A DNA stretch of 64,000 nt, from assembly GCF_901538355.1 (NCBI RefSeq), contig NZ_LR593887.1, forward strand, positions 4,378,920 to 4,442,919, written 5' to 3'. This document shows, piece after piece, positions 2,030 to 35,050 of the stretch; position 1 is the first letter of the stretch, and each line of letters begins with the position of its first letter. Source of the stretch: Tuwongella immobilis. GTDB taxonomy: Bacteria; Planctomycetota; Planctomycetia; Gemmatales; Gemmataceae. Both the position numbers and the translations under genes were made by a program. The notes under the pieces are model-generated. The model did not search any database, had not been told where the DNA came from, and worked only from the letters and a program-made list of their open reading frames with translations.

Positions 2030-4237
2030 CTACTTCCCCAATTCCGGGCTGTTCGCCAAAATCGTCACTGGCTGTTCCGCAAGCACGCGGTTGCCGTTCT
2101 CCTGGATTTCCGCGACCACCACCACCGGCAGCACGGGCTTACTCGACGCATTCGCTAGCAGTTGCACGCGCAATTGCCCCGATTCGTCGCCTGCCGGAAT
2201 CGTGATCGGATCCGCGACAATGCCGGGCACCTCTCGCGGCACCTGCAACCGCACCGTCACCGGCCCCACCAGATCGGAAGCTCGACGCACGCGGATCGGC
2301 AGCGAAATTGTCTCCCCCGCTCGCCCGGTCACCACCGATTGACCAACGTCGACACTCAGCCGATTCGGCTGCACAATCACGATCACTTGTTCGTTGGGCT
2401 GCACCGAAGTGAACGAAACCACGTGCTCACTGCCATCCCAATCTCGGATTGTCGCAATCCCCACAATGCACGATCGACTGGTGCGCCCCATTTCCATCCA
2501 CGGTGGCAGCATCACGCCATAGTCGAATCGCGTCGCACCGGCGGGCACGATCATCGGCTCGCCGGTCACCCCCTGCAAATGGCGGGCTTGTTTCTCCGCC
2601 AACTGCACCGTGATCGGGCCATCGTACCCCGTTCGCTCCAATCGGTAGGAACGACGCACCAACTGTCCGCGCGGTGCCAGCCGCGAATCGAACTCCCCGA
2701 CAATGCGAAAGGGCGTTGGCATCGCAATCGCCAAACGAATATCTTGCGGTGGGCTGACTTCGCCGGGCAACGGCTCGACCTGGGCAATGCGTTCGATCGG
2801 TCGCCGCAGACTGGTGATCGGGCTGATCGGCTGCCAAGCGGTGGCGACGACGCGCACGCGATGCGATTGAATGCGAATGCGCTCGGCGACCGTCAGACGG
2901 ATTTCGCCGCGATCGCCGGTGATGTCCGCAACCCCTGCCGCCACAACGCCTTCCGGCAAGCCGTCGATGCGCACGCGAATCGGCCCGCTCATCCCGGCGA
3001 TGCGTTCGATCCGCACTGGAATCGTGACCGTTCCGCCTCGTGGAAGCGTGACGATACTGCTGGGCAACCAGACGCGATAATCTGGCACGACACGCTCAGC
3101 GATGAACCGATAGCGAAATGCCGATCCGCCGCGAATGCGAAACCGATCGCGCACCTCCACCGCCCACATCTCCGGTCGAGTCGATGGCAGGATTGCCGAG
3201 ACAACGCCATTACGGTCGGGTGGCGTGTCGATGGTCTTCAGAATTTGCCCCTGTGCATCGCGGATGGTCACCACCGGCAGCAACGCCGAGTGCAACCCCG
3301 CCAGCGACACCCCAACCCGCCATTGCTCTGCAGCCGTCACCGCAACGGAATGTGTCCCAATCAGTCCCGGTGTCGCAAGTGCATGCGTGGCATGTAGTTG
3401 CGATCGGTCCGCGGGCTTCTCAGACGAGTGCGCATTGACGGTAACAGTCAACCGATAGACATACTGTGGCCCACCTTGATTCTTCACGTCCCGAATGCGG
3501 ATCCGCACGGTTTCGGCACACTCGGCCTGATATTCGAGAATCGGCGGCCCATTTCCCGGGCTGACTGCCTCCACGGGAGGGCGATCATCGGAATGTAGCA
3601 AATCGACGAGCGGCACCACCGGCGAACCGAACGCGGCGGAATCGGCCTGCACCCGAAGTCGATCGCCTGCCCGCAGCGCGACATCATACCAATCGACGTC
3701 TTCCCGTGGGAAAATTCGACCATTAACGGTCACGGGAGGCCGAATCAGCACCGGGATTGGCTCGCCCGCTTGTTCGGATTCGATGATTTCTGGGAGGTCG
3801 CCGACGATGAATGCGGGGGTCTGCGATCCGCCTTGCGACGTCCAGAGTCGGGCACGTCTCGCACCCAATGGGGCATCGGCGGCAATCGTCACCGTCGCTT
3901 CGTTGGTCAGCGGGTAGTCTTCTTTTTGTTGCGATTCCGGCAGCGGAAGGAGTGGCCCCTCGAACCAAACCGCTTTGACCCGTGTGAGTTGCGGCGAACT
4001 GGTGATGCCCGGGCCAAGCATCTCCCAATCGCAGCGTTCTCGCAGATACAGCCCGCTTACGGTCACGGGCACCTGCGTGCCACGCTGACCACCAGCCGGA
4101 AACAGTACCATCGCCTCCGGTGGATCGGCCCGCAAATGGGGGAGCATTCCAGGCCCAATCATTCCACCCAACGGAATTCCGGACATTCCCAACCAAGTGG
4201 CCAGGAAGATCGTGCGGCGGCGACGGTTGATCGACAT
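2030..4237 (-). CDS. large exported protein with IPT-like and pre-peptidase C-terminal (PPC) domains
   Basis: The protein has 735 residues when started at 4237 (MSINRRRR), where the basic n-region of an export signal begins; an upstream in-frame start at 4270 is possible. After the signal (to about residue 40) comes an IPT/TIG-like strand region with LFPAGGQRGTQVPVTV. Next is a PPC-type beta-sandwich around VNGRIFPREDVDWYDVAL and RLRVQADS, then several immunoglobulin-like sandwich modules to the C terminus. No protease triad or other catalytic signature is visible, so it is probably a structural or binding protein of the envelope. It is the last gene of a minus-strand run (DUF1553, DUF1501, TspO, this gene), 42 bases after the TspO stop. 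Such PPC proteins often accompany DUF1501/DUF1553 genes in planctomycetes. Confidence 0.75.
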   Translation of the reverse strand: MSINRRRRTIFLATWLGMSGIPLGGMIGPGMLPHLRADPPEAMVLFPAGGQRGTQVPVTVSGLYLRERCDWEMLGPGITSSPQLTRVKAVWFEGPLLPLPESQQKEDYPLTNEATVTIAADAPLGARRARLWTSQGGSQTPAFIVGDLPEIIESEQAGEPIPVLIRPPVTVNGRIFPREDVDWYDVALRAGDRLRVQADSAAFGSPVVPLVDLLHSDDRPPVEAVSPGNGPPILEYQAECAETVRIRIRDVKNQGGPQYVYRLTVTVNAHSSEKPADRSQLHATHALATPGLIGTHSVAVTAAEQWRVGVSLAGLHSALLPVVTIRDAQGQILKTIDTPPDRNGVVSAILPSTRPEMWAVEVRDRFRIRGGSAFRYRFIAERVVPDYRVWLPSSIVTLPRGGTVTIPVRIERIAGMSGPIRVRIDGLPEGVVAAGVADITGDRGEIRLTVAERIRIQSHRVRVVATAWQPISPITSLRRPIERIAQVEPLPGEVSPPQDIRLAIAMPTPFRIVGEFDSRLAPRGQLVRRSYRLERTGYDGPITVQLAEKQARHLQGVTGEPMIVPAGATRFDYGVMLPPWMEMGRTSRSCIVGIATIRDWDGSEHVVSFTSVQPNEQVIVIVQPNRLSVDVGQSVVTGRAGETISLPIRVRRASDLVGPVTVRLQVPREVPGIVADPITIPAGDESGQLRVQLLANASSKPVLPVVVVAEIQENGNRVLAEQPVTILANSPELGK

Positions 4238-27368: not shown

Positions 27369-28412
27369 TTAGGAGTGCCGAGAAGTGGGGGCAATCATCC
27401 CATCGATGGGGCTACTGGCAGTCGCATACAGCTTCTTCGGAATCCGCCCGGAGAGCGACGCCATTCGGCCCGCCTCGCAGGCATAGCGCATCGCCCAGGC
27501 CATGCGGACGGGGTCTTTCGCGCTGGCAATGGCCGTGTTGAGCAGCACCCCATCGCACCCGAGTTCCATGGCGGCGGCCACATCGCTGGCTGTCCCCACC
27601 CCCGCATCAATAATCACCGGATAATCGGGATCTCCCGCCTTCAGATATTCCAAAATGATGCGGATATTGTTGGGGTTGAGCACCCCCTGCCCACTTCCGA
27701 TCGGACTGCCCGCCGGCATCACACTCGCAGCCCCGGCATCCTTGAGCCGTTTGGCCAACACCGGATCATCGCTGGTATACACCAACACCTGAAAGCCTTC
27801 TTTCACGAGTTGTTCGGTGGCCTTCAGCGTATCAATCGGGTCGGGCAACAGCGTCTTTTTGTCGGCCAGACATTCCAGCTTCACCCAATCGGCACCGGGA
27901 TTTTCCAGATTCGTCAGCAGTTCGCGGGCTAATCGTGCGTGGCGAATCGCATCTTCGGCGTTGAAGCATCCCGCCGTGTTCGGCAGAATCGTGTACCGCT
28001 TCAGGTCGAGATAATCGAGCAGATTCCGACCTTCGGAATCGATCAAGCGTTCGCGGCGGACGGCCACGGTGGTCACTTCGCATCCGCTGGCGGCGAGGCT
28101 GTCGCGCATCAGATCGAAGGTCGTATATTTGCCGGTGCCCGTGAATAATCGGGAGCGGAACTGGAATTTGCCGACCACCAGCGGCTTGTCTTCTGGGGGC
28201 GATTCCGGCTGCCCGCCGCCAACGAGCGAGACGATTTCGACTCGATCCCCTGTGGTGAGGCGGGTTTGCGCGTGCTGATGGCGCGGAATCACGCTCAGAT
28301 TCACCTCAACGGCAACCCGTTTCGGCTCGTGGCCCAGCACCTGCAATAGCTGTTCAATGGTCAGCGGATCAGGAAATTCGCGGGGCTGGTCGTGCAGGAT
28401 AATTTGCGGCAT
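27369..28412 (-). CDS. thiSG: fused sulfur carrier ThiS and thiazole synthase ThiG
   Basis: This 347-residue protein has two domains. Residues 1-67 are a ThiS ubiquitin-like fold ending VSLVGGG (Gly65-67), the site of the thiocarboxylate in free ThiS. After a short linker ([10 protein letters not shown]), residues 78-347 are Thi[40 protein letters not shown] with the expected Schiff-base Lys177, and [27 protein letters not shown]. ThiG makes the thiazole phosphate of thiamine from deoxyxylulose phosphate, dehydroglycine and ThiS-thiocarboxylate. In the fusion the Gly-Gly is internal, so either the chain is cut after Gly or sulfur is delivered another way. Fusions of this type are known in annotation, but their mechanism is not settled. 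There are no other thi genes nearby. Confidence 0.93.
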
Positions 28413-28602
28413 GGCGGTCTGCGGTGCCTCGGTAGTCGCTCGAAATCTCGGCTATTCCTATCCTACGCAACCCAACGCAACCGGCCAGGAGTTGCCACCG
28501 ATTCCGTCCGAACCGGGCATTCGGATTGCCGACAGTCTCCAACCGCGTTACAACAACCACTCCATCCGATTTCAAGATCCTTGTCGTGGGCTGGGCTTCT
28601 CG

Positions 28603-30462
28603 ATGTCGTCGCATTATGTGCCAAATACCCGTATTCCGACTTTGGTCTTCTCCAGCAGCACCCAAGTCGCTCGCCATGCGGCGTTGATTATCGAAAAGCT
28701 GATTCGGGAAAACAATGCTGCGGGCAAGGCGACCGTTCTGGGCCTGGCGACCGGTTCCACCCCCATGGGGCTGTATCGGGAATTGATCCGCATGCACCGG
28801 GAAGAGGGGCTGGATTTCTCGCGGGTCATCTCGTTCAATCTCGACGAATACTACCCGTTGGCGAAGGAAGATACGCAATCGTATCACACCTTCATGCACG
28901 ACAATTTATTCAAGCATATTAACATCAAGCCGGAAAACATCCACATTCCCAACGGGGAAGTGAAACCGGAAGAAATCGACGATTTCTGCCTGAAGTACGA
29001 ACAAGCGATTCGTCGGGCCGGTGGGCTGGATGTGCAAATTCTGGGCATCGGCCGCACCGGGCACATTGGCTTCAACGAACCCGGCTCAACCCGCACCTGC
29101 CGCACGCGACTGGTGACGCTCGACCCGATCACCCGCCGCGATGCCGCCGCTGGATTCTTTGGCGAAGAAAACGTCCCGCACCGCGCCATCACCATGGGCG
29201 TCGGCACGATCATGGATTCCCGCAAAGTGCTGCTGATGGCCTATGGTGAACACAAGGCCCGCATTGTGCAGCGCACGCTGGAGAACGATCTCACCGAAGC
29301 AGTCCCGGCGAGCTTCTTGCAACGCCATCAAGACGCGACGTTCCTGCTGGATACCGCCGCCGCCGGGGAGTTGACCGCCTATCGCCGCCCCTGGGAAGTC
29401 GGCCCGATCAAATGGACGCCGGAACAAATCCGCCACGCGGTGATCTGGCTATCCCGCAAGGCCAAGAAAGCCTTGCTCAAACTCTCCGAAGATGATTTCC
29501 GCGAGCATCATCTGTACGATCTGCTCCGCGATCATGGCCCCGCCGAGGCGTTGGGCGAACGCATCTTCCTGGATCGCCAAGCGACGATCTGCACGCACCC
29601 CGCCGGACGTGAACGGCAAACCGTATTAGTCTTCAGCCCCCACCCCGACGACGACGTGATTAGCATGGGGGGCACCATGCTGCGGCTGGTCGAACAGGGG
29701 CACGATGTCCGCGTGGCCTACATGACCAGCGGCAATATCGCTGTATTCGATCACGACGCCTGGCGATTCACCGATTTCATGGATGTTTTCAATCGAGCGT
29801 TCGGAATCGACAAGAAAAAGACCGATACCATTCGCAAGCGTGTGCGGTCGTTTCTGGATTCGAAACGGGCGGGTCAACCCGATTCCGAAGATGTGCTGCA
29901 GATCAAGCAGTTGATTCGGGAGACGGAAGCCCGTGCCGCGGCCGCCGCGTGTGGGATTCTCGCCGATCAGTGCGAATTTCTGAATTTGCGATTTTACCGC
30001 ACCGGCACCAAGACGAAAGCGCCGTTGCACCCGGACGACATTGCCGATATTGTCACGCTATTCGAGCGGGTGCAGCCGGCTCAAATCTATGTTGCCGGCG
30101 AAATGTCGGATCCGCATGGCACGCATCGCATGTGTGCGGAGGCGATTTTCCAAGCGGTTCGTCAAGTTCGCACCAAGGGCCAATCGTTCGAAGTCTGGTT
30201 GTATCGGGGTGCCTGGGAAGAATGGGAACCGCACGAGATTGAACGGGTGGTTCCGCTAAGCACCGAAACCCTGGAGAAAAAGAAACTTGCGATTTTTCGG
30301 CATCAATCGCAGAAAGATCGTGCGATGTACCCCGGTAGCAGCGATCCCCGCGAATTTTGGCAACGCGCCGAAGAACGCAACAAAGCCACCGCGGCCATCT
30401 ACGATCAACTCGGATTGCCGGAATTTTTCGCCCTGGAAGGGTTCGTCCGCTGGAAAGAGTGA
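28603..30462 (+). CDS. NagB-like domain fused to PIG-L deacetylase domain
   Basis: The protein has 619 residues from the ATG at 28603; the frame is open upstream to 28357 but that part overlaps the divergent thiSG start and looks non-coding. Residues 10-270 are a glucosamine-6-phosphate deaminase fold: LATGSTPMGLY, SFNLDEYYPL with Asp81 and Glu82, and GIGRTGHIGFNEPGS with His154 and Glu159. The residue before Gly-His is Thr152, where classical NagB has the catalytic Asp of NDGH. Residues about 340-600 are a PIG-L (LmbE-like) zinc deacetylase: SPHPDDD near 345-351 and SDPHGTH near 504-510. The architecture matches the known NagB-like/PIG-L fusion family. It probably acts on an amino-sugar phosphate; which reaction it performs is uncertain. 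Confidence 0.9.
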   Translation: MSSHYVPNTRIPTLVFSSSTQVARHAALIIEKLIRENNAAGKATVLGLATGSTPMGLYRELIRMHREEGLDFSRVISFNLDEYYPLAKEDTQSYHTFMHDNLFKHINIKPENIHIPNGEVKPEEIDDFCLKYEQAIRRAGGLDVQILGIGRTGHIGFNEPGSTRTCRTRLVTLDPITRRDAAAGFFGEENVPHRAITMGVGTIMDSRKVLLMAYGEHKARIVQRTLENDLTEAVPASFLQRHQDATFLLDTAAAGELTAYRRPWEVGPIKWTPEQIRHAVIWLSRKAKKALLKLSEDDFREHHLYDLLRDHGPAEALGERIFLDRQATICTHPAGRERQTVLVFSPHPDDDVISMGGTMLRLVEQGHDVRVAYMTSGNIAVFDHDAWRFTDFMDVFNRAFGIDKKKTDTIRKRVRSFLDSKRAGQPDSEDVLQIKQLIRETEARAAAAACGILADQCEFLNLRFYRTGTKTKAPLHPDDIADIVTLFERVQPAQIYVAGEMSDPHGTHRMCAEAIFQAVRQVRTKGQSFEVWLYRGAWEEWEPHEIERVVPLSTETLEKKKLAIFRHQSQKDRAMYPGSSDPREFWQRAEERNKATAAIYDQLGLPEFFALEGFVRWKE

Positions 30463-30579
30463 TGGTTCGGCGCTGCTGCCGGTTGACTTGCCTGCAAGTT
30501 TACCGTTCCAGGCGACCGAACCCGCAAACTCGTCACGCTGTCTGGTGTGATAAGTCTGTTTCGAGCGTTCTGAAAGGGT

Positions 30580-30601
30580 CCCACCCCCTTGATGGGGTGG
30601 G
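30580..30601 (+). terminator. hairpin downstream of the NagB/PIG-L gene
   Basis: CCCACCCC and GGGGTGGG form a perfect 8-bp stem with a 6-base loop, 118 bases beyond the stop and 63 bases before the DUF2203 gene. There is no T-run, so this is a weak terminator or processing hairpin. Confidence 0.45.
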
Positions 30602-30663
30602 TATGATGGAGTAAAGGGCCGTTGTGTGGTCCTCGTTGCCGTCGCCAACCGGGAGTCCTCGTC

Positions 30664-31143
30664 ATGAATTCCACTCCACGCCGGGCTTTTGGATCGACCG
30701 ATCAACCACGTCGGTCGGATGTCAGTCTGGATTTGACGACTGCTCGCAAAATGTTGCCGCTCGTCCGTCAAATCGTCGGCGATATATTGGCTCATCGGCA
30801 AACGCTCAACCGTCTGCAACCAGAACAGGAAAATCTCGATCGCCATCGACGGGATCTGGTCTGGCAAGAACGCCAACGCCGCTACTATGTCACCGAGACC
30901 ATCGAAGCGACGGAAAAAGCACTCGCCGCCGCTCTGAAGGAACTCCGGGGTCTGGGTGTCAACTTGACCGATAGTGCGACCGGGGAAGTCGAATTCCCCA
31001 CCCGCATCAATGGTAAATCCGCCTCGTTTCAGTGGCGAGCCGGGGAAGACGACCTCCACTATTGGCACTATGCCGATGAAGATGGTCGCCGACCCATCCC
31101 CCAAGACTGGGCCGCTTCCCAGCCGGTGGCTCAACATTCGTGA
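30664..31143 (+). CDS. DUF2203 family protein
   Basis: The protein has 159 residues from the ATG at 30664, set by a GGGAG ribosome site 9 bases upstream. It shows the DUF2203 pattern: LDLTTARKMLPLVRQIVGDIL at the start, a long amphipathic helical stretch with RHRRDLVW-type charged residues, KALAAALKELRGLGVNLTD, GEVEFPTRINGKSASFQWRAG, and the closing LHYWHYADEDGRRPIP. DUF2203 proteins are small cytoplasmic proteins of unknown function present across many bacterial phyla. A sigma-70-like promoter for a separate RNA begins 48 bases after the stop. Confidence 0.88.
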   Translation: MNSTPRRAFGSTDQPRRSDVSLDLTTARKMLPLVRQIVGDILAHRQTLNRLQPEQENLDRHRRDLVWQERQRRYYVTETIEATEKALAAALKELRGLGVNLTDSATGEVEFPTRINGKSASFQWRAGEDDLHYWHYADEDGRRPIPQDWAASQPVAQHS

Positions 31144-31190
31144 CGCGATTAGAGTTCCCGAAAATTTCAAAACTTTTCGGAAGTTTTCTC

Positions 31191-31218
31191 TTGTCTCTTT
31201 TCGGTTCCGTGCTACTAT
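31191..31218 (+). promoter_or_regulatory. promoter of the candidate orphan RNA
   Basis: TTGTCT (31191-31196) and TACTAT (31213-31218) are separated by 16 bases within an AT-rich block (31160-31220) that contrasts with the GC-rich surroundings. Each box matches four of six consensus bases. The start point would be near 31225. Confidence 0.55.
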
Positions 31219-31224
31219 GTCATT

Positions 31225-31435
31225 GGAGTTGGTGAGGAAGACAATCTTACTCTTCCAAACGACATCAACTCCGATGAATTCTCAGACATCCAAAATGTCT
31301 TGGAGTTCAACCCTAGCGGGTTCTTTCTGTACCGAGGGGGGTACAGTTTGAGCTGCCGAGCTACCGAAAGGGATGGACGGGACCCATAAGTATGCTTGGT
31401 ATCCGGAGTGGGCAACCACTCCGGATTATTTTTTT
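31225..31435 (+). ncRNA. candidate stand-alone structured RNA of about 210 nt
   Basis: A promoter at 31191-31218 and a textbook terminator ending at 31435 bound a region with several clear helices: GGAGTTG (31225-31231) with CAACTCC (31266-31272), enclosing GGAAG (31236-31240) with CTTCC (31252-31256); AGACAT (31284-31289) with ATGTCT (31295-31300); and CTGTACC (31327-31333) with GGTACAG (31340-31346). AACTCC (31267-31272) can alternatively pair with GGAGTT (31302-31307), giving two mutually exclusive folds. No plus-strand gene follows, so it is not a leader. I find no RNase P, tmRNA, SRP or tRNA signature; a 6S-like or trans-acting RNA is possible. A 44-codon frame from 31218 to 31351 exists but lacks a ribosome site. 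Confidence 0.55.
31401..31435 (+). terminator. intrinsic terminator of the candidate RNA
   Basis: A perfect 11-bp stem (31401-31411 with 31416-31426) with a GCAA tetraloop is followed by TATTTTTTT. It is the most canonical intrinsic terminator in the window. Confidence 0.92.
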
Positions 31436-31613
31436 CCCCACGAAGAAAAAATCCACTCCGAACTGTTTGCTCTGCCAACCGCAAGCACCGCATTCGCACT
31501 CGCACAACCATTCGACGAATCGTTTTCCGACTCCCCATCAAACAAACACCGCCCAGAAACCGAGGGGGCTGCTGAGCGGTGCGTTGAATTGGATCGGATC
31601 AGGCAGTCGCAAA

Positions 31614-32339
31614 TTACTTCAATTCTTTGATGAAGATATTTTTGAAGTACAGCGGATTGCCGTGATGCTGCAATTCGATCGGCCCCGTCGCGGGCACCGG
31701 TTTGCCGCGTTCCCAGAAGTTCATCAGCGGCTCATTCTCGACCACCAATTCACCGTTGAGATAGACCGTCACCAGCGACTTTTGGACGAGAATGCGAAAC
31801 CGATTCCATTCGCCCACCGGCTTATCCGCATTCTTCAACGGCGTTTTGCCCTTGGAGCCTGCCGGATTATTCCAAAGGCCACCGGAGCCTTTATCCTTAT
31901 CCGGAGCCAGCCCGCCGGTCAGCGCGGTCGAATCCCAAATCTGCACCTGTGGCTGACCACGCAGGTAGATTCCAGAGTCGCCCGCTGGTCCAATTTTCCA
32001 ATCGACGAGCAATTCGAAGTCGCCGTAAAACTTCGTCGTTTGCAGCGAATCGCCTTTGCCATCGTACACCAAAACACCATCGGCATTCACGGTCCAGTGC
32101 GGCAACACCTTGGCATTGGCGGCTTTGATTTTCGCCTCGCGGTCGGCATCGGTTCCTTTGACCAATTCCGGCAACGGCACCACGCCCTGCCAACCGTCTA
32201 AGTTTTTGCCATTGAACAGGGCCGTGAAGCCCGCAGGCGGCACATTTTCCGCAGCGCGAAGTGGGGCCACAAACGTGCCGAGCAGCAACCCGGCCATTGC
32301 GACCGAGCCGACGCGGCGGAGGAATCCGGAACGGATCAT
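31614..32339 (-). CDS. DUF1080 (3-keto-disaccharide hydrolase-like) exported protein
   Basis: The protein has 241 residues from the ATG at 32337-32339, where the signal peptide begins (MIRSGFLRRVGSVAMAGLLLG, cut near residue 29). The DUF1080 beta-sandwich follows: GFTALFNGKNLDGWQG at its start, YGDFELLVDWKIGPAGDSGIYLRG in the middle, EWNRFRILVQKSLVTVYLNGELV, and IELQHHGNPLYFKNIFIKEL at the end, all standard. The family is expanded in planctomycetes and includes 3-keto-glycoside hydrolases; the fold is concanavalin-like. It lies 29 bases after the M2 peptidase gene on the same strand and may be the last gene of that run. Confidence 0.93.
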   Translation of the reverse strand: MIRSGFLRRVGSVAMAGLLLGTFVAPLRAAENVPPAGFTALFNGKNLDGWQGVVPLPELVKGTDADREAKIKAANAKVLPHWTVNADGVLVYDGKGDSLQTTKFYGDFELLVDWKIGPAGDSGIYLRGQPQVQIWDSTALTGGLAPDKDKGSGGLWNNPAGSKGKTPLKNADKPVGEWNRFRILVQKSLVTVYLNGELVVENEPLMNFWERGKPVPATGPIELQHHGNPLYFKNIFIKELK

Positions 32340-32368
32340 GGGGTGGTCTCCAGGGTGGAATGCCGCGA

Positions 32369-34081
32369 TTATTTCCCTTGGAAATCGCGGGCGAAGGCTT
32401 CGGGCGACAGATCCTTGCCGGTTGCGAAGCGGGTCAATCCCCGCCAATCGCGGGTGCGACCGGGGGCAAACACGCGATCCTTCATGAACTGCCCAACGGC
32501 CGGGTTGCCGATGTAAATCACCGTGCTGGGATCGGCCCCGTTGTACAGTTCCTTGGCAATCGTGTGATGCACTTGCGACGCAAACAGTTGGCCCATCATG
32601 TAGTTATGGTAATACACCGGCGCACTACAGATGTGGATCTTCGAGGCATAATCCGGCGCGTTGCGTCCCTCGGGCCGTTTGACTTGCTGATACTGCTCGA
32701 CGAGATCCCACCAGAGTTTGTTCAAATCTTGATCGGGATTTTCATACATCGCTTTTTCGAACCGCAGCATCACTTGGCACCAGCGCGAAAAGATCAGCAG
32801 TTGATTGCGCTGCACCTTCTTGGCGGCGGCTTCGAATTTATCCGCGTCGGGGACCGTCACGCCCATCGTTTCCAGCCAGGCTCGCGATTTCGAGAATCGC
32901 TCGAACTGCATCGCAACCCCTTCTGTGGAAAGGATATGCGCTTCCCCACGCACAACATACGGCAGACTCGCCGGAATGTTCAAACTACTGTAGACGGCAT
33001 GCCCCAGTTCATGCAGCATCGTGCCGGCCCAGTATTCGTTGGGGACGATATTCGCCAGCACGCGAACATCCCCTTCCCGGTCGATGTCGGTGCAGAAGGC
33101 ATGGGGGCTTTTGCCGGGCTTTTCGTACAGATCGCTGCGGGCGATCACGCGCTCAATCGGCAGACCAATGCCCCGGTAAAAATCTTGGCAGAGCTTCAGC
33201 AGATCCGCCTTCTGATATGGCGCATCCAGACTGACATCGAAGACCGCCGGCGATTCTTGGAAGAACGGATCATGATACGACCATGGCCGAAGATCCTCGA
33301 CCTTCACCCCCTGCGCGGCGGCTAACTTCGCATCAATTTCGGCTTTCGCGGCGGCGAACGGTTCCTTGGTCAGCTTGTCCAGGTCATCAAACAGTTGAAT
33401 CAGCGACGGTCCATCTTGCTCGTTCAAATCGAGCATCAGGGCATGGAAATTGGCATACCCCAACTGCTTGGCCGCTTGATTGCGAAGCTTCACCAGCTCC
33501 TTCAGATCCGCTTCCACCGATGCGCCAACGCCCTTGCTCGATTCCCAAACCGCTTTGCGGCGTTCGGGATCGGTCGATGACTTCAGAATATTCCGCACTT
33601 CGGAATCGGCCAATTCTTTGCCATCGACCTTGGCGCGATAGACGTTGAACTTCTGCTCCACCGCATTGGCCTTGGCGACGATCTTTTTCAGCAGTTCCGG
33701 CTCGACCTGCTTTTCGAGATATTGCAGATAGAGCACATCAATGCAGCGGGCGATGAGCGGATCATCGATTTGTCCCGATTGTCGGGCCTGCTTCAAGGCT
33801 TTGAGTTCGGCAAAGGCGTCGGCATTGGCCAGGGCGGCGTCCACCTTGTTCTGGGCGGCTTCCTTCTTGGCGAAATCCTCATCCTTGCCGCTGGTGTTCG
33901 CGTTCCACCAGGCCAGCCCGTTGGCGATTTCCAGCGGGCGGATTCGGGCCTCATGGGCAGCGATGAATTTTTTGGCTTTGTCTGTCATTTCGGGGCTTGC
34001 CTGAGAAGTTCCGGTCCACGAGACCATCGTCACGCAGGCCAGCGACCCCAATTTGGGGAAGAATTCGCGTCGGGTGAGCAT
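32369..34081 (-). CDS. M2 (angiotensin-converting-enzyme-like) family metallopeptidase
   Basis: This 570-residue protein begins with a Tat-like signal (LTRREFFPKLGSLACVTMVS). The zinc site is HELGH within AGTMLHELGHAVYSS, with the downstream Glu in LSTEGVAMQFE as third ligand, the HExxH...E pattern of gluzincins. The helical N-terminal part (AHEARIRPLEIANGLAWWNANTSG) and the C-terminal YYHNYMMGQLFASQV are typical of the M2 dipeptidyl-carboxypeptidase fold. It is a probable periplasmic peptidase acting on short peptides. It is transcribed with UbiA and inositol-3-phosphate synthase upstream (36-base gap) and DUF1080 downstream, though a functional link to them is not evident. Confidence 0.9.
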   Translation of the reverse strand: MLTRREFFPKLGSLACVTMVSWTGTSQASPEMTDKAKKFIAAHEARIRPLEIANGLAWWNANTSGKDEDFAKKEAAQNKVDAALANADAFAELKALKQARQSGQIDDPLIARCIDVLYLQYLEKQVEPELLKKIVAKANAVEQKFNVYRAKVDGKELADSEVRNILKSSTDPERRKAVWESSKGVGASVEADLKELVKLRNQAAKQLGYANFHALMLDLNEQDGPSLIQLFDDLDKLTKEPFAAAKAEIDAKLAAAQGVKVEDLRPWSYHDPFFQESPAVFDVSLDAPYQKADLLKLCQDFYRGIGLPIERVIARSDLYEKPGKSPHAFCTDIDREGDVRVLANIVPNEYWAGTMLHELGHAVYSSLNIPASLPYVVRGEAHILSTEGVAMQFERFSKSRAWLETMGVTVPDADKFEAAAKKVQRNQLLIFSRWCQVMLRFEKAMYENPDQDLNKLWWDLVEQYQQVKRPEGRNAPDYASKIHICSAPVYYHNYMMGQLFASQVHHTIAKELYNGADPSTVIYIGNPAVGQFMKDRVFAPGRTRDWRGLTRFATGKDLSPEAFARDFQGK

Positions 34082-34117
34082 TCCAGTTCCTTCTGTCGAT
34101 TGGGCCTGAATTGGCGA

Positions 34118-35050
34118 TCAGGTCGAGTAGACCCATTTTCCCATCACCAGCGCGGGGGGCAACAAAAAAAGGATCAACAGCCCCGGGACACCGATGAATA
34201 GCCCGGCCAGCACCGCATCCAGCATCACCAGCCCAAGAATGCACCGCTTCACCGCTTGTTGCACCGGCTTGGGTTGCAGCGTTTGCAGCGCCGTGCGAAT
34301 CGGCCCGCCGATGAGAATGATGAACGTCGCCAGGAAATACGGGAACCACCGACTGGACTGCCCCGGTCCCAATTGCAGCGGAATCGTCAGCGCCAGCACC
34401 ATGGCGGCAACCATCACGCCGACGGCCCCCAGCAGTTCCATGCGGTTGCTTTGCGTTGCTTCCGTTCGCGCAAACCATGTCACACCAACGATATACACCC
34501 CAATCACCGACGCCACATGCAACCGAACCGACCAGGGAATTTGCTCGGGAAGCACCAGCGACAATCCGAATAACACATTCAGAAAGCGGCAACTGCCCAT
34601 CGAAATGGGGCCAATCGGGGTGTGCTTCATCCAACGGTCATACAACAGAATGGCGACGACCAACGCCCCTGCCAGCATCAACGGCATCGGCTGGAAGCCG
34701 CCAGTTTCGGGAATCGCCCCGATGCCGACAATTGCCGCAAGTCCAACGCCCGCAAGCATCAGCGTCATCGCCAAGCGCACCGCCACCGCTTTGCGGACCT
34801 GCCCCGACGGCAATGGCCGAAACGGGCGATCCCGGCGATCTTCGGCCAGGTCAAAGATGTCGTTCCAGACCATTCCGGAGCAATAGAGCAACCCCGATGC
34901 AAACATCAGTCCCAGCATCCGCCAGGGGAAGTGATCGATTCCGCTTGTCGGAACCAAGGCGGCAATCATGGCCGCGCCCAAGGCAATATCGGCAAACGCG
35001 GTCCAGACGTTCGGAATCCGCATCAAGCGAGCGAACGGCAGCCAAGCCAT
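34118..35050 (-). CDS. UbiA family prenyltransferase
   Basis: This 310-residue protein has eight to nine membrane helices. The first Asp-rich motif is clear: NDIFDLAEDRRDRPFRPLPSG (NDxxDxxxD type) at about residues 62-82, which binds the prenyl diphosphate through magnesium. The second polar loop reads ARTEATQSNRM rather than a strict DxxxD, as in subgroups near the EboC branch. UbiA enzymes attach prenyl chains to aromatic or polyol acceptors in the inner membrane. The gene lies 30 bases after an inositol-3-phosphate synthase gene on the same strand, which suggests a prenylated inositol-type lipid or a related product; this is inference from position. Confidence 0.9.
   Translation of the reverse strand: MAWLPFARLMRIPNVWTAFADIALGAAMIAALVPTSGIDHFPWRMLGLMFASGLLYCSGMVWNDIFDLAEDRRDRPFRPLPSGQVRKAVAVRLAMTLMLAGVGLAAIVGIGAIPETGGFQPMPLMLAGALVVAILLYDRWMKHTPIGPISMGSCRFLNVLFGLSLVLPEQIPWSVRLHVASVIGVYIVGVTWFARTEATQSNRMELLGAVGVMVAAMVLALTIPLQLGPGQSSRWFPYFLATFIILIGGPIRTALQTLQPKPVQQAVKRCILGLVMLDAVLAGLFIGVPGLLILFLLPPALVMGKWVYST

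Follow-up and report, generated by a model that had tools for sequence, protein, structure and literature searches.

The stretch analyzed here (the window, 64,000 nucleotides of the Tuwongella immobilis genome) contains a small RNA gene, RNA A, that represents what we regard as a well-supported new family of free-standing Gemmatales RNAs, one that appears to share a common origin with an orphan riboswitch class and of which the window holds the aptamer-less form. At the DUF2203 locus where RNA A lies, its orthologues in other genomes include RNAs with a complete c-di-GMP-I-GGC aptamer (RF03167), the 5′ half of which is absent here. Judged from sequence comparison, this identity and the kinship with the c-di-GMP-I-GGC riboswitch are very probably correct. 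The best overall explanation, to which we give about an even chance, is that A is a riboswitch-related, trans-acting small RNA that pairs with a ligand-sensing relative, RNA B. The features of the locus are the following.

30622 to 31143, plus strand: gene for a DUF2203 protein (PF09969, from Pfam), the upstream neighbor, which precedes the RNA in the same orientation at 44 of 65 loci.
31191 to 31218, plus strand: promoter read from the sequence, with −35 TTGTCT (31191-31196), 16 nt, TGC (31210-31212), and −10 TACTAT (31213-31218).
31225 to 31435, plus strand: RNA gene of class A, aptamer-less form, its start placed from the promoter and its end from the terminator.
31225 to 31272, plus strand: 5′ hairpin of the minimum free energy (MFE) fold, with no counterpart in the relatives read.
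31275 to 31309, plus strand: second 5′ hairpin of the MFE fold, unconserved.
31320 to 31353, plus strand: H1, with an outer helix (31320-31323 with 31350-31353) and the hairpin CUGUACC-GAGGGG-GGUACAG (31327-31346).
31355 to 31400, plus strand: H2, GCCGAGC (31355-31361) with GCUUGGU (31394-31400).
31370 to 31385, plus strand: H3, hairpin GGG-AUGGACGGGA-CCC, with the 12-mer GGGAUGGACGGG (31370-31381) as the segment proposed to pair with RNA B.
31401 to 31435, plus strand: intrinsic terminator, an 11-bp stem (31401-31411 with 31416-31426) followed by a T-run.
31392 to 32201, plus strand: mechanical open reading frame that overlaps a Pfam-supported minus-strand gene and is taken as spurious.

By its sequence signals, RNA A is a free-standing RNA of about 210 nt with its own promoter and its own terminator, as expected of a trans-encoded base-pairing small RNA, and to that extent the reading of the segment in an earlier note, as an independent structured RNA gene, is supported. 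The promoter elements TTGTCT and TACTAT described there are present. Because a strict sigma-70 scan of positions 28000 to 35000 returned no sites, the window promoter included, the promoter call rests on comparison across loci: at 55 of 64 loci the core is preceded by the pattern TTGCNN-N(15-18)-TAnnn[TAG], compared with 10% of shuffled upstream sequences, and the window −35, with TTGT, does not itself fit this pattern. The textbook terminator of the earlier note was detected by a scan (11 pairs in the stem at 31401-31426, 7 of them G-C, and the T-run), and 63 of 64 loci have an equivalent 3′ of the core. No same-strand gene follows it, as had also been noted; the Pfam-supported gene there lies on the minus strand, and the overlapping plus-strand frame was judged spurious.

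The predicted fold of the window RNA (−87.3 kcal/mol) is far more stable than that of shuffled sequences (−60.7 kcal/mol; z = −6.05), none of 200 shuffles being as stable. The conserved part is a 3′ core (31318-31400), which a covariance model built from 26 sequences (R1) detects in 67 of 102 Gemmatales genomes and 30 of 44 genera. Among 297 genomes of the class, 64 carry the core, of which 61 fall inside the order and three outside it. Likewise, BLASTN of positions 31170 to 31440 against 59 genomes, the source genome included, gave matches at E values up to 1 in 44, and the strong matches fall in the 3′ part. The 5′ hairpin at 31225-31272 occupies the place that other 5′ sequence and the 5′ half of the aptamer take in the orthologues that carry it. 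The earlier note had proposed a switch between two pairings that share AACUCC at 31267-31272; this segment is pairable with GGAGTT at either 31225-31230 or 31302-31307. In the predicted fold, however, its partner is the former, in a 10-bp helix, and the 5′ region is unconserved in the relatives read, so that we do not retain the switch.

Synteny accompanies conservation of the core: the syntenic, covarying copy that the earlier note suggested seeking in related Gemmatales was found, with the DUF2203 gene upstream of both forms of A, aptamer-less and aptamer-bearing (hereafter, fused). At nine of the 21 loci without it, the sequence on that side was shorter than 600 bases; at the other 12 it was 1.4 kb or more, and at these the gene is therefore not adjacent. 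The genes downstream of A in the window have no match at any other core locus.

Because RNAalifold found almost no structure on the MAFFT alignment of 32 sequences (A1), the helices were positioned manually and their pairs counted on alignment A2. This is A1 without L005, L008, L017, L028, L037, and L038, which comprise sequences with odd H1 loops, one near-duplicate, and three that are distant. Across the 26 sequences of A2, 94.1% of the cells of the four helices are paired, compared with 86.6% when the 3′ letters are shuffled, and the covariation score is 0.352 versus 0.202. For all 32 sequences, the corresponding values are 89.4% versus 81.1% and 0.336 versus 0.187, and none of 500 shuffles matched the pairing or covariation values in either set. 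Slid controls pair in 30 to 54% of cells, a comparison that favors the structure in that it was derived from the same sequences. The compensating helices reported in the earlier note thus reappear as compensating variation across relatives, clearest in H1, where six of the seven pairs of the inner stem show changes on both sides and the GAGGGG loop is kept in 56 of 65 loci. In H2, 94.4% of cells (26 sequences) or 91.5% (32 sequences) are paired, with mainly one-sided changes. The segment GGGAUGGACGGGACC is unchanged at 60 of 66 loci.

Additional loci came from an exact DNA pattern search of genome contigs, which gave many matches in unrelated phyla among the matches listed; those without GAGGGG nearby were removed by script. 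Of the leftovers, two (L142 and L187) were set aside as false and two more (L122 and L189) as a second copy or duplicate, and L200 is a truncated locus; L126 and L165 were included in A2. Later counts leave out L333 and L334 (contig edge), L335 to L338, an edge copy in G029, and, in some cases, L332. L335 to L338 (genomes G116, G062, and G063) are additional A-like copies that have diverged and whose H1 stems are altered.

At gathering scores, Rfam detects nothing but a tRNA in the 64-kb window. Three low-score matches in 31100 to 31500 (E values up to 10) were taken as chance: snoR12, mir-6129, and BTnc005, the last on the minus strand with E = 0.008 and a score of 21.6 bits where the cutoff is 174.8. 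None of them is 6S RNA, tmRNA, RNase P, or SRP RNA, which we reject for lack of Rfam support, and with them the 6S-like role suggested in the earlier note. The relationship to a known class emerged from the relatives. Rfam scans of 30 loci found by BLASTN, the window's own among them, gave 17 RF03167 matches in 16 loci, 16 of them above the 59-bit cutoff. Two matches, both at locus L030, are cis copies in front of a Flp pilin gene, and the other 15 overlap the core. Within the larger set of 65 core loci, 21 carry the aptamer 5′ half, GGCAAACC...GACGCAAAGC, and 44, the window copy included, do not (the tag of one genome, G084, was set by eye). Because this half is missing, the window copy is not matched by RF03167, even when E values up to 10 are allowed. 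The earlier note had found that the RNA fits neither a riboswitch leader nor a familiar RNA signature; this holds for the RNA in the window, which has no Rfam match, but not for the locus, where orthologues hold the c-di-GMP-I-GGC aptamer. The novelty that it offered as an inference fares similarly, in that the window copy is without a match and yet A is not without a family.

A and RF03167, homologous at the same locus, have in common the 3′ half of P3 together with the GCCGAAG-GGAUGG stretch that follows, H1 being the counterpart of the apical part of P3. Fused orthologues comprise the complete aptamer, whereas the window copy lacks the 5′ half, is free-standing with its own terminator, and leads no gene. 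In fused copies, the sequence GCCAGGC is common to the P3 3′ strand of the aptamer and the 5′ strand of H2; aptamer and H2 would therefore be alternative, mutually exclusive folds in those orthologues, and the window copy would be left with H2 alone. On a tree of 35 DUF2203 proteins (6 from fused loci), the aptamer label is clustered, requiring two changes compared with 5.7 when shuffled.

Across 59 genomes, there are 102 RF03167 matches, which a script assigns to A (17, or 18 if one copy at a contig end is counted), to B (23), and to others (62). The others are followed by motifs of Flp pilins (28), protease-like proteins (11), or LEdRlvPS surface proteins (7), or by none of these (16); loci L032, L034, L035, L062, and L030 are examples of copies with such downstream motifs. 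One downstream pilin was confirmed by Pfam, and a protease fragment that was tested had no match. The same motifs follow none of the 17 fused A copies and none of the 23 B copies, versus 46 of the 62 other GGC copies. Thus, A does not lead a coding gene in cis, as the Rfam type (Cis-reg) would have it, and a terminator comes next instead. We know of no ligand for RF03167.

RNA B is a free-standing relative that keeps the aptamer, and in this genome it is the source of the single RF03167 match (C1:2556963-2557062).

G000:C1:2556932-2557062 (locus L039, about 3840 to 4150, minus strand): RNA B of this genome, free-standing, with the GGC aptamer kept.

This copy (near 2556900-2557200) is closed by a 14-bp long-range helix and then a T-run, and such a helix precedes a T-run in 23 of 51 B copies, compared with 8% when upstream sequences are shuffled. 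The segment CCUUUCAUCC or a close form lies 5′ of the aptamer in 20 of 23 copies. A hairpin 3′ of the aptamer contains CCYGUYCRUCCC in its 3′ strand. The genes downstream differ among the 23 copies, as far as they were read, and within the six B RNAs scanned Rfam finds nothing but the aptamer. A model of B scores at least 97 bits in 47 of 102 genomes; three with weaker scores (G027, G035, and G088) were added by hand to give 50, and G098 also carries B, with an insertion that lowers its score. A weak match in G080 was rejected because it reads like an ordinary GGC copy. By eye, some A and B copies (L003, L007, L043, and L040) have in common a 5′ hairpin with the loop AGUUUUUGU or AGUUUUGGU, which was not seen in the window copy.

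The observation that links the two RNAs is complementarity between the A 12-mer and the 3′ strand of the B hairpin. Of the 43 genomes examined with both, 39 show it over all 12 bases and four over 11, and the B hairpin itself pairs only 4 to 11 of these bases, such that pairing in trans exceeds pairing in cis in 43 of 43 genomes. Full 12/12 complementarity to A is found for 47 of 51 B platforms (the first 23 of which were chosen with a motif covering most of the 12-mer), compared with none of 2,550 shuffled platforms. None of 60 other GGC copies has it either, although four of these reach 11/12. Because of that choice, the count was repeated for B picked by a loose 5′ marker alone: at least 11 bases are complementary in 20 of 25, the remaining five seem on visual inspection to be spurious matches to the marker, and three more 12/12 copies are without the marker. 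The A 12-mer is altered in 1 of 45 genomes with B and in 5 of 21 without it (P = 0.011; 1 of 44 and 5 of 22, P = 0.014, before G098 was reassigned). With phylogeny ignored, as in the counts above, 46 of the 102 genomes have both RNAs, 21 have A only, 5 have B only, and 30 have neither (45, 22, 5, and 30 before the reassignment, P = 3 × 10−7).

Other results temper this picture. Cofolding of A with B predicts intermolecular pairing for nine or more of the 12 bases in just 17 of 43 genomes, and the mean gain of −8.9 kcal/mol is the same as with shuffled B (−9.0 kcal/mol), although nested folding cannot show kissing loops. A second search of 20 A-only genomes with laxer filters found no B, the matches being A itself, known GGC copies, and the G080 sequence. 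Because A occurs in genomes in which B was not found, either A has another role there or B was missed. Part of the complementarity may be inherited, since the A 12-mer resembles the 5′ hairpin strand of B itself. A possible second contact involves the P3 loop of B, which contains a run of C (CCCC and one further base, or CUCCUC, a motif chosen after looking) in 25 of the 27 genomes whose A is aptamer-less versus 2 of the 16 whose A is fused, phylogeny again being ignored; the genome-by-genome match of this loop to the A GAGGGG loop is weak when compared with shuffled loops. Taken together, we consider pairing of A with B plausible but somewhat short of probable. The trans-acting role proposed in the earlier note remains the best guess, and it has gained a candidate partner, although not the support of cofolding.

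Several other readings of A deserve weighing against its proposed pairing with B. A could be a base-pairing small RNA with mRNA targets, its match to B being inherited from a common ancestor, a reading that we consider unlikely. It draws on the position of the A 12-mer, which is that of the B 5′ platform strand, with which it looks homologous, and on the retention of A in the 21 genomes without detected B, 16 of which keep the 12-mer intact. However, A pairs with the B 3′ strand better than does B's own 5′ strand in all 43 genomes examined, and a search of this genome with the complement pattern gave seven matches compared with four for a control: B, the antisense strand of A, and five inside reading frames (four listed ORFs and one lipoprotein-like frame). 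A protein-binding function, such as that of a CsrA decoy in which the H3 loop presents ANGGA cores, seems improbable to us. ANGGA is the CsrA binding motif, and CsrA (PF02599) is encoded in all 102 genomes of the order (with seven matches in this genome). One varying base of the 12-mer (U, with C in three loci and A in two genomes of the class) falls at the N of ANGGA, which occurs 2.36 times per A RNA versus 1.03 in shuffled sequences. CsrA decoys, however, are multi-site RNAs with many ANGGA motifs, and in A the enrichment is limited to one 3′ hairpin, with 0.47 outside it versus 0.68 in shuffled sequences. Moreover, two A copies read GUGGA, and CsrA sites leave unexplained both the constancy of CGGGACC and the match to B.

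We hold it very unlikely that A is a cis element or 3′ untranslated region, either the end of the DUF2203 transcript or an attenuator of a downstream gene. Although A begins 82 nt after the DUF2203 stop codon and ends in a terminator, the promoter found at 55 of 64 loci, the unmatched downstream genes of the window, and the absence behind fused A of the gene motifs usual for other GGC copies all speak against such a role, and a covarying core would be superfluous for a bare terminator. It is extremely improbable that the conserved AUGGACGGGACC is the start of a short reading frame: an AUG is present in most A copies, but it is changed to ACG, GUG, or AAG in some, every codon position is equally constant, and copies read by eye show differing frames or a stop after about six codons. 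A short peptide from AUGGACGGG was likewise rejected, as the coding signature is absent.

Under pairing of A with B, the alternative folds would provide a means of control. In aptamer-bearing orthologues, GCCAGGC would reside in either P3 or H2, and the ligand would set the fold. With the aptamer 5′ half absent from the window copy, H2 and H3 alone would be possible, and the loop would therefore be displayed all the time. The displayed loop would pair with the CCYGUYCRUCCC segment of RNA B, perhaps with a second contact between the GAGGGG loop of A and the C-rich P3 loop of B, and this pairing would open the B platform hairpin and so modulate or sponge the ligand-sensing RNA. As a tentative model, A and B may thus form a two-RNA, trans-encoded sensing pair of Gemmatales in which B reads the ligand with its GGC aptamer and its paralogue A, often aptamer-less, sets the output of B by a loop-loop contact.

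Precedents exist for parts of this scheme. According to a section of PMC8079631, SreA and SreB of Listeria are terminated SAM riboswitches that act in trans; A would resemble them as a riboswitch-related RNA with a proposed action by base pairing, whereas SreA, in that account, keeps its aptamer and also works in cis, and A has no downstream gene and, in the window copy, no aptamer. EutX/Rli55, as portrayed in portions of PMC5821096 and PMC8079631, is an AdoCbl-riboswitch RNA that resembles A in holding a riboswitch within a noncoding RNA with its own promoter and acting in trans, but it sequesters the protein EutV, whereas the proposed partner of A is an RNA. No description of RNA A or B was found in the portions consulted of the open literature on c-di-GMP-I-GGC, variant riboswitches, and small RNAs of Planctomycetes and Gemmata, including PMC12452182, PMC9943018, PMC7266159, and PMC10043782.

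Although the Rfam type of RF03167 is cis-regulatory, the free-standing RNAs A and B account for 40 of its 102 matches in the 59 genomes. An orphan riboswitch class would thereby gain an output of a kind new to it and, in the aptamer-less form, a control supplied by nature, as well as better access to its ligand, at whose physiology the Flp pilin, protease-like, and surface-protein motifs behind the other GGC copies may hint. The family also suggests a route by which a riboswitch may become a trans-acting RNA; if the two-RNA pair is real, it would represent a riboswitch turned into its own antisense regulator.
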